Source: Methanolobus psychrotolerans
GTDB lineage: Archaea; Halobacteriota; Methanosarcinia; Methanosarcinales; Methanosarcinaceae
Length of the DNA stretch: 64,000 nucleotides
Assembly (NCBI RefSeq): GCF_002243045.1
Contig: NZ_MBKP01000001.1
Location: forward strand, 1-64,000
Reading direction: 5' to 3'
Within the stretch, counting starts at the first letter, position 1. Each line of letters starts with the position of its first letter. Below the pieces are notes generated by a model that saw nothing but the letters and a program-made list of their open reading frames with translations, was not told the DNA's origin and did no database searches. Shown here piece after piece: positions 8,336 to 50,626 of this stretch. A program made the translations under genes and the position numbers.

Positions 8336-8849
8336 CTGCTTCCACAACTGAATAGTTAGCAGTACAACAACCACGCAGAAGGCGGCGCAGTCCATTGCTG
8401 CTGTAGAAAGAATATCTTTTGTAGCATTAAACTTAAAATCAACAACATTTTATTCAACCGTCTTTTGTTAAGCTTAACATTGAAACCAGATAAGCACATA
8501 ATTCAAAATGGCATGCATTGGGCAGCTCGGCTAGTATGTTCTTGGTGGTGTGGCCCACCCATACTTACCGATATACAAGAGAAGTATTCTGCAAAACTTG
8601 CCGATATATAAGTGAATTTTATGTGATCGGGTCGTCTGATTAATATCCCGGGTTTGGCAGTTTTCACTTTCCTGATGTGAATTCATCCCCAATAATTTGA
8701 AAAAACAGGTTATACTATGAACTGAGTTTCAGAAAATAATATGGCATCCCCCATGAGGAATCATGATAAATTAATCGTTATACATATATAGCACTTCAGT
8801 GTATCCCTTTAGGCTGCTACCTAATGGCAGACAACTATCGTGAGGGATT
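8336..8849. other. Spacer with the second copy of the ATPase flanks and the leuA/cimA promoter
   Basis: 8364-8414 repeats 6636-6690, and 8566-8646 repeats the ATPase promoter block including both CCGATA boxes, but no ATPase gene follows. TATACATATATAGC at 8779-8792 is a strong TATA box about 60-70 nt before the synthase reading frame. CTGC and GCAG (8811-8827) could form a small stem in the leader. No leader peptide or attenuator was recognised. Confidence 0.55.
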
Positions 8850-44470: not shown

Positions 44471-44495
44471 ATATCAATATAAATTACATTGATAT
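44471..44495 (+). promoter_or_regulatory. TATA box enclosed by a perfect inverted repeat, S-layer gene promoter
   Basis: ATATCAAT (44471-44478) and ATTGATAT (44488-44495) are perfect inverted arms around TATAAAT (44478-44484). A protein bound to the arms would cover the TATA box. The predicted transcript start is near 44506, leaving a leader of about 47 nt with GGGGGA before the GTG start. Confidence 0.55.
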
Positions 44496-44552
44496 AGAGG
44501 TACCTTGATAATTTAATGTACCATAATAATAAACTAAATGTGGGGGAATAAT

Positions 44553-47159
44553 GTGAGAAATAAGAATATATCGAATTTATCAGTATTATTAATAGCAATG
44601 CTGATAATGCTATCAAGCACTGCTATGGCTGCAAACAACAGCACTGGCAATAGAATATGGGATGCGGATGAGAACCTGTCCCTTGATTATACATGGACTG
44701 CCCTAAGCTACTCCGGGTTCTATTTTGATCTTGATTCTGGAGAAGGGTCTGAAACACTTACAATCAAACTGGACAGTAATAGTGACAGGAGTATAGGAGC
44801 CGGAGATCTCAAATATTCAACAGCCCCTATAGCTACGAGCTTTGAACAGGGGGACTGGGGGTCCTATCAGGTAATCGGATTTATGGCTGAGCGCTATTTT
44901 GCAGGATATACTGACACTACTGAATTTGCAGATGATGATGTGAGCCTGATATCTGACGGCATACTTACAAAAGTCCTGCTTGACGATGACGAGAAGCTTT
45001 CCCTGTATTCCGGCTCTTCACTTGTACTTGAAGAAGGATATGAGCTGAATATAGTAGAAGTGGACTTGAACGGTAACAGTGTGATGGTAACCCTGGAAAA
45101 GGATGGAACTAGTGTGGATACAGACATATTATCCTCGGGTGACAACTATGTATACGCAACGGAGATTGGAACTGATGATGAGGTACCTATAATAGCTGTC
45201 CGTTTCAGCAGTATATTCCAGGGAAGAGAAACCACTGCCGTATTTGTTGAGGGTGTGTTCCAGATCTCTGAGGACTACGTAGAAGTAGAATCGGGCGATT
45301 CCTTCGGCAGGATGGAAATTACATCCCTGAGCTCTGATGAGATAACAATGGAGAATTCGGGTTCTGTCAGCCTTGGCAGAGGTAATACCATAACGATCAT
45401 GGGCAAGCTGAAATTCATGGTTGCTGATGACAGCACTCTTAGGTTTGGTCCTGTGGTGGACATGTCAAAACCAGGCATCTATGAACTAAGAGGTACTGTT
45501 GCAGAGAATGAGAAACTCAAATGGACGCCAATGAACTTCGAAGGTTTCTACTACAACATTGATGAAGGCATTGGAACCGAATCCCTTGATATCACAGACA
45601 TCACTGGCAGAACCATCAACCGGGGAGACCTTCTTTATACCAGCAAACCCCTGGATGTCAATTTCGAGCATGATGAATGGGGTAAATTCCAGGTAATCGG
45701 CTTTATGGCAGAGAAATATTTTGCCGGCTATCCGGATAATGAATTCACAGACGATGTGAGCCTTCTGTCTGACGGCCAGCTCTCAAAAGTGCTTATTGAT
45801 GATGACAACAAGAAGTCCCTTTATACAGGTTCTTCACTTATGCTGGAAGAAGGATACCAACTCTACGTTGTTGAAGTTGACCTTAACGGCAACAATGTGA
45901 TGGTTAACCTTGTAAAGGATGGAGATAACATTGACACAGGAATCATTTCTGCTAATGATGACTATGTTTATGAGATGGACATCGGCTCAACAGATAATGT
46001 GCCTGTCATAGTGGTGCACTTTGCTGAGATATTCAGGGGAACCGAAACTAATGCCGTGTTCGTTGAAGGTATTTTCCAGATATCAGAAGACGTGATCGAG
46101 ATCGAGGCAGGTGAGAGGTTTGGAAGGATGGAAATAGCAAGCTTCTCTGAAAATGAGATAACCTTTGAGAACAGGGACTCTGTTTCACTGACAAGAGGAA
46201 ATACTATCAGTCTCATGGGAGATATTTCATTCAAGGTTGCAGACTCCACTGATGTACGCTACTATCCTTTCGTGGAAGTGTCCACACTACCTTCACAATC
46301 ACTTTCCATTGATATGCCTGCTGTTATAAGACAAAATGAGGTACTGGAAATTGAGGTCACCTCCAGAGGTGCAGCCGTAGACAATGCTGTTGTGATGTTT
46401 GGTAACATTGATATCGGCAGGACAGCAACTGACGGTACCGTATCCTATACCCCGCAAAGTGCAGGCACTTTTACGGTGACGGCTGAAAAGGATGGTTTTG
46501 TTTCAGCAAGTGAAAAAGTGGAAGTTATCTCACCTGAAGATGCGACAAGGAAACTTGTTATCGAAGTATCCCCTGAAACCGTTGTTGAAGGAGATGACAT
46601 TACCATTTCGGTGATGAAAGCTATCGGCGGGGATCCTGTGGAAGGTATCCAGGTCTACTATGACAGCAATCTCATAGGCAGTACAGACTCTGATGGTATG
46701 CTTACATACAATGTGAAGGAAACAGGCGTTCACAAACTGACGTCTTCATCAGATGAATACCTCGAAGCTGAACTCAACCTTGAAGTTCTTGCGCTGGAGG
46801 CAATGTTCTCATACTCCAACCTTCAGGTCACACCTCTTCTTGTAAAGACAGGAGAAGATGTTACAGTTACTGTTGATGTGATGAACACAGGCACTTCCGC
46901 AGGCCAGACCGATGTTCAGCTGCTTATCAATGGTTCTGTTGCTGACTCAAAGAGTGTGTTACTCGATGCAGGAGAGGAAACAACTGTCACCTTCACTGTC
47001 TCTGAAGATGAGGCAGGCAGCTATGAAGTACAGATAAGTAGTTTTACAGTAATCTTTGAGGTGGAAAAGAAGTTCCTGCCTGCACCTGGCATAATCGTTT
47101 CAATGACAGCAGTGCTTGCTGTTGCTTTGCTCATTCGCATGAATAAAAGAAAGGACTGA
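44553..47159 (+). CDS. S-layer protein with two S-layer duplication domains
   Basis: About 868 residues. Signal peptide (ISNLSVLLIAMLIMLSSTAMA), then two homologous S-layer domains of the Methanosarcinales type (about 25-305 and 306-575). Both contain QVIGFMAE(R/K)YFAGY, a GSSL(V/M)LEEGY turn and AVFVEG(V/I)FQISED. Ig-like carboxypeptidase-regulatory folds and a CARDB-like module (about 745-835) follow, and a C-terminal helix with basic tail (PAPGIIVSMTAVLAVALLIR) anchors it. GTG 44553 is chosen because GGGGGA lies at the right distance; ATG 44538 overlaps that site. Long relative to a lone lattice protein; a role in the MotA/DUF2149 machine downstream is possible. Confidence 0.9.
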   Translation: MRNKNISNLSVLLIAMLIMLSSTAMAANNSTGNRIWDADENLSLDYTWTALSYSGFYFDLDSGEGSETLTIKLDSNSDRSIGAGDLKYSTAPIATSFEQGDWGSYQVIGFMAERYFAGYTDTTEFADDDVSLISDGILTKVLLDDDEKLSLYSGSSLVLEEGYELNIVEVDLNGNSVMVTLEKDGTSVDTDILSSGDNYVYATEIGTDDEVPIIAVRFSSIFQGRETTAVFVEGVFQISEDYVEVESGDSFGRMEITSLSSDEITMENSGSVSLGRGNTITIMGKLKFMVADDSTLRFGPVVDMSKPGIYELRGTVAENEKLKWTPMNFEGFYYNIDEGIGTESLDITDITGRTINRGDLLYTSKPLDVNFEHDEWGKFQVIGFMAEKYFAGYPDNEFTDDVSLLSDGQLSKVLIDDDNKKSLYTGSSLMLEEGYQLYVVEVDLNGNNVMVNLVKDGDNIDTGIISANDDYVYEMDIGSTDNVPVIVVHFAEIFRGTETNAVFVEGIFQISEDVIEIEAGERFGRMEIASFSENEITFENRDSVSLTRGNTISLMGDISFKVADSTDVRYYPFVEVSTLPSQSLSIDMPAVIRQNEVLEIEVTSRGAAVDNAVVMFGNIDIGRTATDGTVSYTPQSAGTFTVTAEKDGFVSASEKVEVISPEDATRKLVIEVSPETVVEGDDITISVMKAIGGDPVEGIQVYYDSNLIGSTDSDGMLTYNVKETGVHKLTSSSDEYLEAELNLEVLALEAMFSYSNLQVTPLLVKTGEDVTVTVDVMNTGTSAGQTDVQLLINGSVADSKSVLLDAGEETTVTFTVSEDEAGSYEVQISSFTVIFEVEKKFLPAPGIIVSMTAVLAVALLIRMNKRKD

Positions 47160-47183
47160 ACAAAAAGCAATTGAATAATGCCG

Positions 47184-47216
47184 GTACCTGCTTTTCTTGC
47201 AGGTACTCTCTTTTTT
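47184..47216 (+). terminator. Strong terminator after the S-layer gene
   Basis: GTACCTGC (47184-47191), loop TTTTCTT, GCAGGTAC (47199-47206) form a perfect 8-bp stem followed by TCTCTTTTTT. Confidence 0.85.
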
Positions 47217-47230
47217 AAAAATAAATTGAT

Positions 47231-47352
47231 TCATTTTACTTCTTCTATATGTACTATCGTACCGTCCTCAAGATATGCTATCCTGTGGCAAACATGACGC
47301 AGGACTTCAATATTATGGGACAAGATATGAACAAGAGACCTACCATAGACAT
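47231..47352 (-). pseudogene. C-terminal remnant of an ABC transporter ATPase
   Basis: On the minus strand the frame reads ...ILSHNIEVLRHVCHRIAYLEDGTIV to a stop at 47231-47233 (about 38 residues). This is the H-loop (SHN/D) and the following C-terminal strand of an ABC transporter ATP-binding subunit. Walker A, signature and Walker B are missing, and no ATG begins the fragment. It marks deletion of a transporter that once lay here, probably linked to the MotA-type system next door or to an IS event. Confidence 0.75.
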
Positions 47353-47453
47353 ATTATAAAATTTTTAAAAATATATAGAGAAACTTAAGTAATTGCGTAT
47401 TAATATACTGTCCACCAAAAGTAATGCATCCGGCATACAAGAGGTTAATAAAA

Positions 47454-48077
47454 ATGGACGCAACTTCTTACATATTCTATATTCTCTACACATTCTCATC
47501 TGCACTACTGTGCCCGGTAGTTATCACGCTGATACTTCTGGCGGTTTATTCCCTGGTATTAATCGGGGAATTTGCTTCGGAATCTGCAAGGAGACACCGC
47601 GATATAGAAAAACTTGATTTTTACTGTAATAGTACCCGCAAGCATATTGTGAACCGGGATCTTGAAAAAGCTGCAAGTTCACTGAGGCTTGTCGGGCAGA
47701 ATTTCCTTGTAAGATCTTTTGCCATGGCTGCAGCAGACCACCTGGAAAAGAATATGATACCAGCTATCGAATGGATCTCACAGGACTATGAGATTAAGAT
47801 GGCAAAGAGACTTGAACAGACCAGGATTGTTGCAACTATCGCACCAATGCTGGGCCTGATGGGGACCCTGATACCTCTTGGCCCTGCACTTATAGGTCTC
47901 TCACAGGGAGATATCGTTCAACTTGCAAATAACCTGATGATAGCCTTTGCTACTACAGTCATAGGACTTTTCGCAGGATGTATCGGTTATGTACTCACAC
48001 AGATCAGAAAAAGATGGTACTGGCAGGATATGGCTGACATAGATTACATTCTCGACACTCTGGAGGTTGGAGAGTGA
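47454..48077 (+). CDS. MotA/TolQ/ExbB-like proton channel protein
   Basis: A 207-residue membrane protein. Three helices are visible, and the helix pair LEQTRIVATIAPMLGLMGTLIPLGPALIGLSQG plus NLMIAFATTVIGLFAGCIGY is the MotA/TolQ/ExbB signature. Such proteins use ion flow to drive a partner across the envelope. ATG 47454 has GAGGT 8 nt upstream and is preferred over an upstream in-frame ATG (47424). Its stop overlaps the DUF2149 start (GTGA). The pair occurs in methanogens near metal-cofactor genes, but here it follows an S-layer gene. Confidence 0.85.
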   Translation: MDATSYIFYILYTFSSALLCPVVITLILLAVYSLVLIGEFASESARRHRDIEKLDFYCNSTRKHIVNRDLEKAASSLRLVGQNFLVRSFAMAAADHLEKNMIPAIEWISQDYEIKMAKRLEQTRIVATIAPMLGLMGTLIPLGPALIGLSQGDIVQLANNLMIAFATTVIGLFAGCIGYVLTQIRKRWYWQDMADIDYILDTLEVGE

Positions 48078-48436
48078 AGAGACGAAAATATACCCGCATG
48101 AGGCTGATAGATAACGAAGAAGAGCAGAACCCCCTTACAGGGGTTGCCAACCTCTTTGACATTGCAATGGTGTTCTCTGTAGCACTGCTGGTTGCACTTG
48201 TCATGTCATACCAGCTTCCTGAACTGCTGAGTCCCACAGATGACATTACTATCGTGAAGAATCCCGGACAGGAAGACATGAAGATAATCATCAAGGAAGA
48301 AGGCAAGCCTATTGAAGTTCTGAACATGACCGACCAGATCGACGGTGGAACAGGAGAAGCTCTTGGTACGGCTTACAGATTGGCTGATGGCAGGATAGTG
48401 TATGTACCAAATGAAGAGAATGAAACTGTAGTATGA
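48074..48436 (+). CDS. DUF2149 protein, probable ExbD/TolR-like partner
   Basis: 120 residues with one membrane helix (about 28-47, VANLFDIAMVFSVALLVALV) and a short C-terminal extracellular part. Topology (cytoplasmic N-terminus, single helix, outside tail) matches ExbD/TolR, the partner of TolQ/ExbB channels, and the DUF2149 family is regularly fused or next to such channels. GTG start inside GGAGAGTGA, overlapping the upstream stop. No TonB is expected in an archaeon; the S-layer protein upstream is a candidate outer partner. Confidence 0.8.
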   Translation: MKRRKYTRMRLIDNEEEQNPLTGVANLFDIAMVFSVALLVALVMSYQLPELLSPTDDITIVKNPGQEDMKIIIKEEGKPIEVLNMTDQIDGGTGEALGTAYRLADGRIVYVPNEENETVV

Positions 48437-49678: not shown

Positions 49679-50626
49679 ATGAATGGTTTTAAAAAAATAT
49701 CATGTGTTCTTTTTGTCACAATTATGTTACTGGCAGTTGCTGGTTGTGTGCAATCAGAAAATACAACCCCAGATGAGCAGGATGCTGCTGACTCTTTTGA
49801 GCAGGAAGTTCAAACAACAGAAGAAGATACTGTCGGACTGGCTTTCCAGAAAGAGGCCACAATCTCTCTGGTCAATGAAGCTGTCGAGCTTATGAATGAA
49901 AACGGAGAACTTGCATTTGATGAGTTCAGGAAAAAAGACAGCAAGTGGTTCCATGATGATACATACCTTAGCATATGGACAACTGAAGGAATACGTGTAG
50001 CTTACGCTCCCAATGTCAGCTGTGAGGGCGAAAACGTATCCGGCCTTAAAGATTATGACGGTAATCCTCTTGGCAAACTTTTCATAGATACGGCCCTTAG
50101 TGAAGATGGCCAGGGATGGATCGATTACCAGTGGCCAAAACCTGGTGAGACTTCTCCTGCCCTGAAGTATACATTCGTCAAGAGAGCTTCGATCGGTGAT
50201 CAGGTATACCTTGTGACTTCCGGTTTCTATGTAGATGATTACGTCTACACCAATAATCTTCAAGACATTGATTATTTCACACGCTTTGGAACTGTATCAC
50301 TTGGAAATCTCCTTCATCCGGGAACAGTTGACAAAGACCTGGGTGTGGATTACAGCATTGCACATGTGATCATCAAACCGGGCGGTTCCATTGACCCTCA
50401 CATGATGACAAATCCTGAAGTTCATTATGTTCTTGCAGGTGAAGGTGTACTTTACATAGAAGATGTGCCATTTGAACTGAGTGAGGGACTAATTGTACTT
50501 GTGCCTGCAAACTCAAAGCAGCACACAGAGAACACAGGAGATTCTGATCTTGAGTTCTTTGCCATAGACCAGCCTGCGTGGGCAGAGGAGAATGAAGAAA
50601 TGGCGGAGTCAACTACCCACGACTAA
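49679..50626 (+). CDS. Lipoprotein with a Cache domain fused to a cupin domain
   Basis: A 315-residue exported lipoprotein (lipobox AVAGC, C23). Residues about 58-205 form a single Cache-type sensor domain: LVNEAVELMNENGELAFDEF, the ligand-pocket YLSIWTTEGIRVAY and GWIDYQWPKPGE. Residues about 225-300 are a cupin 2 domain (PHMMTNPEVHYVLAGEGVLY, then LVPANSKQHTENTGD). Cache domains normally sit on membrane receptors; a free lipoprotein with a metal-binding cupin is unusual and suggests an extracellular sensor or binding protein. The last residues and stop (STTHD) come from a transposon-end hairpin, so the original C-terminus was probably replaced. Confidence 0.85.
   Translation: MNGFKKISCVLFVTIMLLAVAGCVQSENTTPDEQDAADSFEQEVQTTEEDTVGLAFQKEATISLVNEAVELMNENGELAFDEFRKKDSKWFHDDTYLSIWTTEGIRVAYAPNVSCEGENVSGLKDYDGNPLGKLFIDTALSEDGQGWIDYQWPKPGETSPALKYTFVKRASIGDQVYLVTSGFYVDDYVYTNNLQDIDYFTRFGTVSLGNLLHPGTVDKDLGVDYSIAHVIIKPGGSIDPHMMTNPEVHYVLAGEGVLYIEDVPFELSEGLIVLVPANSKQHTENTGDSDLEFFAIDQPAWAEENEEMAESTTHD

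Follow-up and report, generated by a model that had tools for sequence, protein, structure and literature searches.

A MotA–DUF2149 gene pair beside a Methanolobus S-layer gene: a duplicate of CobN-operon pairs and a probable energiser of CobN-like (de)chelatases

The window analysed here is the whole 64,000-nucleotide stretch of Methanolobus psychrotolerans DNA, contig 35 of its own 3.16-Mb draft genome. In this window, a gene for an S-layer protein is followed on the same strand by genes for a MotA/ExbB-like channel subunit and a DUF2149 protein, as identified with Pfam. We believe that this gene pair is a duplicate of the pairs that accompany CobN in archaeal operons, that it is the counterpart of HmuU and HmuV of the bacterial Hmu operon, and that it probably acts as an ion-driven energiser of extracytoplasmic CobN-like (de)chelatases. 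The initial annotation had likened the locus to a Ton-type system built on an S-layer instead of an outer membrane. This comparison was not supported: the conserved partner of the pair is CobN, and the S-layer gene persists without an intact pair in four close relatives. The three genes are as follows.

44538 to 47159, forward strand: S-layer protein of 873 amino acids with a signal peptide, two PF07752 domains, a CARDB-like domain and a C-terminal transmembrane (TM) anchor (Pfam, NCBIfam, PDB 3u2g)
47454 to 48077, forward strand: MotA/TolQ/ExbB-like channel subunit (HmuU type) of 207 amino acids (PF01618)
48074 to 48436, forward strand: DUF2149 protein (HmuV type) of 120 amino acids with a GTG start, a single TM helix and a small outer domain (PF09919)

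The channel subunit matches PF01618 with an E value of 2e-11, and its partner matches PF09919 (DUF2149) with an E value of 3.5e-34. The channel gene most likely starts at 47454, where its relatives begin, and not at 47424. The two genes are adjacent, and the GTG start of DUF2149 overlaps the MotA stop codon (GTGA), which suggests translational coupling. This adjacency and overlap are those of an HmuU/HmuV-type pair; a CobN gene in the same operon is missing at the window locus. The MotA-like subunit also matches TolQ chains (E 0.002). Its T138 and T168 align with the conserved threonines of ExbB and are invariant in 54 homologues, and D29 of DUF2149 aligns with the aspartate of ExbD and is invariant in 47 archaeal homologues. 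These invariant residues support an ion-driven, stator-like complex. Like ExbB-ExbD-TonB and TolQ-TolR-TolA, the window pair combines a TolQ/ExbB-related subunit with a one-TM partner carrying an aspartate in its helix. It also has the ExbB-type channel residues. Unlike these systems, it has no ExbD family member, and no TonB-type transducer was noticed at the locus. In the predicted DUF2149 model (mean predicted local distance difference test score 57), the TM helix at residues 20-46 is confident and the outer domain is not. The DUF2149 profile found no match among PDB sequences, and a fold shared by its outer domain and ExbD is not established. The energised channel pair of the initial annotation stands as regards its ExbB/ExbD-like organisation, of the HmuU/HmuV type, but not as regards the S-layer protein as its partner.

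The association with CobN was examined in two samples, 80 named DUF2149 loci drawn from a scan of 84,980 genomes and 60 relatives scored for DUF2149 and CobN (genomes and loci are numbered G and L below). DUF2162, MotA and CobN surround DUF2149 at 51 of the 80 loci, and 7 more have CobN minus one other part. CobN was therefore found at 58 loci; the S-layer gene was found at 6, all from Methanolobus. The DUF2162–MotA–DUF2149–CobN operon occurs throughout Methanosarcinales and beyond, and the other intact pair of the window's own genome lies in such an operon (contig 89, 828-7896). The co-occurrence analysis that had been proposed for this locus showed that DUF2149 tracks CobN. Both were present in 46 relatives and neither in 10, 4 had DUF2149 only, and none had CobN only. 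As two of the four DUF2149-only genomes carry CobN pieces at contig edges, the corrected counts are 48 with both, 2 with DUF2149 only, 0 with CobN only and 10 with neither (Fisher p 9e-10, ignoring kinship among the genomes). DUF2149, DUF2162 and CobN are all absent from the Methanolobus genome G006 (99% complete), which keeps the S-layer gene. In three Methanomicrobiales genomes and one Methanophagales bin, the pair is present and no PF07752 match was obtained. Each of the 77 archaeal CobN proteins inspected has a C-terminal TM anchor, and in 57 of them the outer edge of this anchor carries an acidic residue; none of 14 S-layer anchors has this residue. Two CobN-like proteins of M. barkeri increase on Fe(II)/cysteine and on pyrite (PMC10846266), which fits a metal role. 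The DUF2162 family (e.g., L004, 7222-7896) has invariant Cys26, Pro108-Cys109-Pro110 and Cys112, which by analogy with NicO/DsbD-type membrane proteins are possibly thiol or metal sites.

Further CobN loci were noted in the genus. A 331-codon frame on contig 80 of the own genome (L005, 6357-7352) fuses a CobN-like N-terminal part with the final 50 residues of DUF2149, as if a CobN/energiser locus had collapsed and left only its two ends. On contig 50 (L123, 2146-15381), a 436-residue S-layer-domain protein with a weak PGF-CTERM-like end lies beside a CobN gene, in line with a set of ABC transporter genes that look oligopeptide/nickel-type; this is a second S-layer-domain/CobN neighbourhood. 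G007 has an extra DUF2162-MotA-DUF2149-CobN locus (L075, 1864658-1872008) in decay, its DUF2149 and CobN genes being interrupted by stops. CobN copy number appeared higher where the duplicate is present (Mann-Whitney p 0.03); this comparison was not used, since the counts were partly inconsistent and phylogeny was ignored.

The origin of the window pair was traced in a tree of 54 concatenated MotA-DUF2149 pairs with ultrafast bootstrap. Eight of ten S-layer-linked pairs form one clade (bootstrap 99) that is nested among the CobN-operon pairs of the genus. The other two lie near that clade with weak support, beside a second CobN-operon type. This nesting indicates that the window pair is a genus-level duplicate of a CobN-type pair. 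Among the ten species, the S-layer-linked pairs have a median ratio of nonsynonymous to synonymous substitution rates (dN/dS) of 0.08, and the CobN-operon copies of the same genomes 0.045; judged from these sequence comparisons, the window pair is under purifying selection. Recent gene conversion between the two copies of the own genome was ruled out by saturated synonymous sites.

Relatives of the pair also occur in bacteria. In a tblastn search against plasmids, the pair adjoined CobN in Bacteroides, Prevotella, Aureibacter, Trichlorobacter, Runella and Azospirillum. In Bacteroides and Prevotella, the locus runs HmuY, a TonB-dependent receptor, CobN, HmuT, MotA and DUF2149; this is the Hmu operon, where the MotA-like protein bears the name HmuU and DUF2149 the name HmuV (PMC10434189). 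The window DUF2149 is 42-43% identical to the Bacteroides and Prevotella copies. The Bacteroidota Hmu system (HmuU/HmuV, HmuS and HmuT; PMC10100974, PMC12583661, PMC13227078) and the archaeal set share both families, an anchored CobN-like protein and a further membrane protein. However, the archaeal set lacks HmuY, the TonB-dependent receptor and the outer membrane, and DUF2162 takes the place of HmuT. The window copy is flanked by neither CobN nor DUF2162 and adjoins the S-layer gene instead. On the Trichlorobacter lovleyi plasmid pGLOV01 (L226), DUF2162–MotA–DUF2149–CobN is followed by a separate ExbB–ExbD–TonB set, near corrinoid genes. On the Runella slithyformis plasmid pRUNSL01 (L227), a NicO/DsbD_2-like permease, MotA, DUF2149 and CobN are embedded in a hydrogenase-maturation (hyp) cluster, a context that suggests nickel as the metal. 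The neighbours hint at differing metals, with corrinoid genes in Trichlorobacter, hydrogenase maturation in Runella and heme in Bacteroidota.

In the published Hmu models, HmuU and HmuV energise the TonB-dependent receptor HmuR. Because pGLOV01 holds its own ExbB–ExbD–TonB, the role of Ton energiser, which these models assign to the pair, need not be the right one. The ExbD family was found in none of the 60 relatives and not in the own genome, and the positive controls gave matches. Neither a TonB transducer nor an outer-membrane receptor was noticed at the locus, where no search was aimed at either. These archaea are not known to have an outer membrane. Energising of a receptor is therefore a poor fit as the basic role of a pair that archaea without outer membrane or ExbD keep together with CobN.

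A mechanism can be proposed on these grounds. The window pair derives from pairs whose normal place in archaeal operons is between DUF2162 and CobN. By analogy with ExbB, probably five MotA-like subunits would assemble with DUF2149 into an ion-driven motor that mechanically works membrane-anchored extracytoplasmic CobN-like tetrapyrrole (de)chelatases. We infer that this motor acts on the anchored CobN, which lies outside the membrane, out of reach for the cytoplasmic ATP-driven CobS/CobT or ChlI/ChlD motors. The metal or tetrapyrrole would then enter through a DUF2162-type permease or other transporters; the motor may drive chelation, release, or transport through DUF2162. The duplicate came to lie 3' of a syntenic Methanolobus S-layer gene, carries its own promoter and is maintained by purifying selection. 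It probably serves the several CobN proteins encoded elsewhere, under other conditions. More tentatively, MotA-DUF2149 may be an ion-gradient motor dedicated to extracytoplasmic CobN-type (de)chelatases in archaea and bacteria alike, replacing the ATP motor, and the Methanolobus copy by the S-layer gene may be specialising for surface use.

Conservation of the neighbourhood of the window pair is limited to some members of one genus. The order GH15–GDE–glycosyltransferase–winged helix-turn-helix–S-layer–MotA–DUF2149 was found, completely or almost completely, in 10 Methanolobus genomes (the window genome, G001, G007, G009 (M. bombayensis), G011, G014, G016 (M. profundi), G019, G020 and G025 (M. 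vulcani PL 12/M)). The conserved neighbourhood that could be expected from the initial annotation is thus real in these genomes but confined to part of Methanolobus, in keeping with the 6 S-layer loci counted above. G002 has the S-layer gene with decayed scraps of the pair (MotA residues 12-49 and DUF2149 residues 86-118). The upstream block, S-layer gene included, is also retained in G004, G005 and G022, where no pair lies beside it. Most of the block is present in G003 too, whose extra pair is located elsewhere. The remaining half of the genus has its S-layer gene at another site, with no pair beside it. The genes past the pair are common to genomes with and without it. For example, a gene for a protein of 575 residues directly follows the S-layer gene in G005 and follows the pair in G001, G016, G019 and G025. 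With such shared flanking genes, the adjacency is what plain synteny would give, and by itself it shows no functional link.

The sequence signals around the genes are listed below.

44471 to 44495, no strand: inverted repeat ATATCAAT-N9-ATTGATAT, the claimed operator; present, at chance level, with a left arm that is not conserved
44489 to 44496, forward strand: TTGATATA, the conserved TATA-like element of the S-layer gene, from an alignment of 14 Methanolobus upstream regions
47183 to 47216, forward strand: terminator-like hairpin and U-run after the S-layer gene (RNA fold -14.9 kcal/mol, z -4.9; similar form in relatives)
47234 to 47353, reverse strand: scrap of 40 codons resembling the end of an ABC ATPase, between the S-layer gene and the pair (weak, best PDB match E 0.026)
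47378 to 47406, forward strand: conserved promoter region of the pair, GAGAAACTTAAGTAATT and then a TATA-like stretch, kept in 8 of the 10 loci

With a terminator of its own behind the S-layer gene and a conserved promoter of its own before the pair, the two look like separate transcription units. The co-regulation of S-layer gene and pair that had been implied is not supported by these sequence signals. The major S-layer gene of M. acetivorans likewise has a 3' hairpin and is not co-transcribed with its neighbour (PMC3361143). The core ACTTAAGTAATT of the upstream element of the pair has one further genomic copy, inside a polymerase-like gene, and no second promoter-like copy was found in the own genome. 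A regulatory site common to the window pair and the CobN operon was not found; their conserved upstream elements differ. Upstream of DUF2162 in Methanolobus CobN operons (e.g., L063, L072 and L101), a conserved CCGAAAGGTTTAATA...TGTTTGCATATATTAGT...AAACAAACA was noted; it contains an inverted TGTTTG/CAAACA repeat and is a candidate operator at which a metal or corrinoid regulator could act. Codon bias was uninformative as a proxy for expression. The ABC ATPase reading of the scrap at 47234-47353 was set aside as weak; it had no Pfam match.

The S-layer promoter had been described as a perfect palindrome around its TATA box and as a sign of tight control. A perfect inverted repeat with 8-bp arms and a 9-nt spacer does exist at 44471-44495, but the TATA box is its right arm and not its spacer. 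An equally long repeat arose in 181 of 1000 dinucleotide shuffles of this intergenic region, and in 61 of 1000 with a spacer of at most 9 nt. In the 14 upstream regions aligned, relatives keep the right arm alone, which indicates that the palindrome is not a conserved operator. The shuffle frequency and the missing left arm together led us to reject both the operator and the tight control.

Several observations weigh against the CobN-energiser reading. In all 10 genomes where the duplicate could be placed, the pair stays beside the S-layer gene. G020 (a 93% complete draft) has the S-layer-linked pair, yet no detectable CobN or DUF2162. If this absence is real, the pair serves something else there, which keeps the S-layer idea alive at low probability. 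The outer domain of DUF2149 has changed in five species, so its partner may have changed too. Homology of DUF2149 and ExbD is not established, the hhalign probability being 0.8% (E 0.07) with Asp aligned on Asp. In vitro, HmuS strips iron from heme and HmuUV is not required (PMC12583661, PMC13227078); the chemistry itself may therefore not need energising.

Three other explanations were considered. The pair could energise the S-layer protein, or transport through the S-layer, in a Ton-like manner with the S-layer replacing the outer membrane. The adjacency persisting in 10 Methanolobus genomes through saturated synonymous divergence, the case of G020 and the diverged outer domain speak for this. 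However, promoter and terminator are separate, G002 (decayed), G004, G005 and G022 have the S-layer gene without an intact adjacent pair, and plain synteny accounts for the adjacency. The presence of the pair makes no difference to the anchor and tail of the S-layer protein (the anchor is nearly identical between G005 and G019). This anchor lacks the acidic residue of the CobN anchors, and pairs are found in genomes without this S-layer family. We regard this explanation as quite improbable. Less easily dismissed, though still unlikely, is that the pair powers a DUF2162/HmuT-type permease, moving metal or tetrapyrrole across the cell membrane, and not CobN itself. In most operons the same slot holds DUF2162 or another membrane protein, the Cys and Pro-Cys positions of DUF2162 are invariant, and a weak match to the DUF2162 profile in the own genome is a NicO/DsbD_2-type protein. 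On the other hand, the Azospirillum CobN-MotA-DUF2149 locus has no permease gene between or directly beside these genes (its annotation is incomplete), the window copy stands without DUF2162, and the co-occurrence with CobN is at least as tight. The duplicate might also be a hitchhiker heading for loss with no function of its own, as the fragments in G002 and its absence beside the S-layer gene in three further close relatives could suggest. A dN/dS of about 0.08 among ten species, the conserved promoter element and the intact channel-type residues make this very improbable.

The energiser reading bears on the Hmu system as well. The use of the many archaeal HmuS/CobN homologues has been described as unclear, and complete hmu operons as absent from archaea (PMC12583661). 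The archaeal DUF2162–MotA–DUF2149–CobN set resembles the inner part of the hmu operon with no outer-membrane part, and it thereby separates the role of the energiser from TonB. It offers a clean genetic test of HmuU/HmuV-type function in methanogens that can be cultivated and that need much Co, Ni and Fe. If the pair is indeed a dedicated CobN motor in archaea and bacteria alike, the Hmu models that make HmuU/HmuV a Ton energiser would be wrong or incomplete.

The surface protein with double S-layer domains was confirmed. Two PF07752 stretches were found by Pfam (E 1e-198 for the whole protein), TIGR01567 matched in NCBIfam (E 1e-145), and the protein resembles the MA0829 structure 3u2g (E 1.6e-37, PDB sequences). 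Translation probably begins at GTG 44553, which a GGGGG ribosome site precedes, rather than at 44538. Like the Methanosarcina DUF1608/PF07752 family (MA0829 and MA3556; PMC3361143), it has two PF07752 domains, a signal peptide and one TM anchor; unlike that family, it has 873 residues with extra Ig/CARDB-like domains. In size, it is near the minor MA3556 (868 residues) and not the major MA0829 (671 residues). In G011 and G020 (L081, about 8460-8816, and L095), a separate small secreted and anchored protein of about 160 residues is encoded between the S-layer gene and the pair, and it resembles the C-terminal part of the S-layer protein. Further along the window, 49679-50626 encodes a secreted protein in which a Cache sensor domain is fused to a cupin domain.

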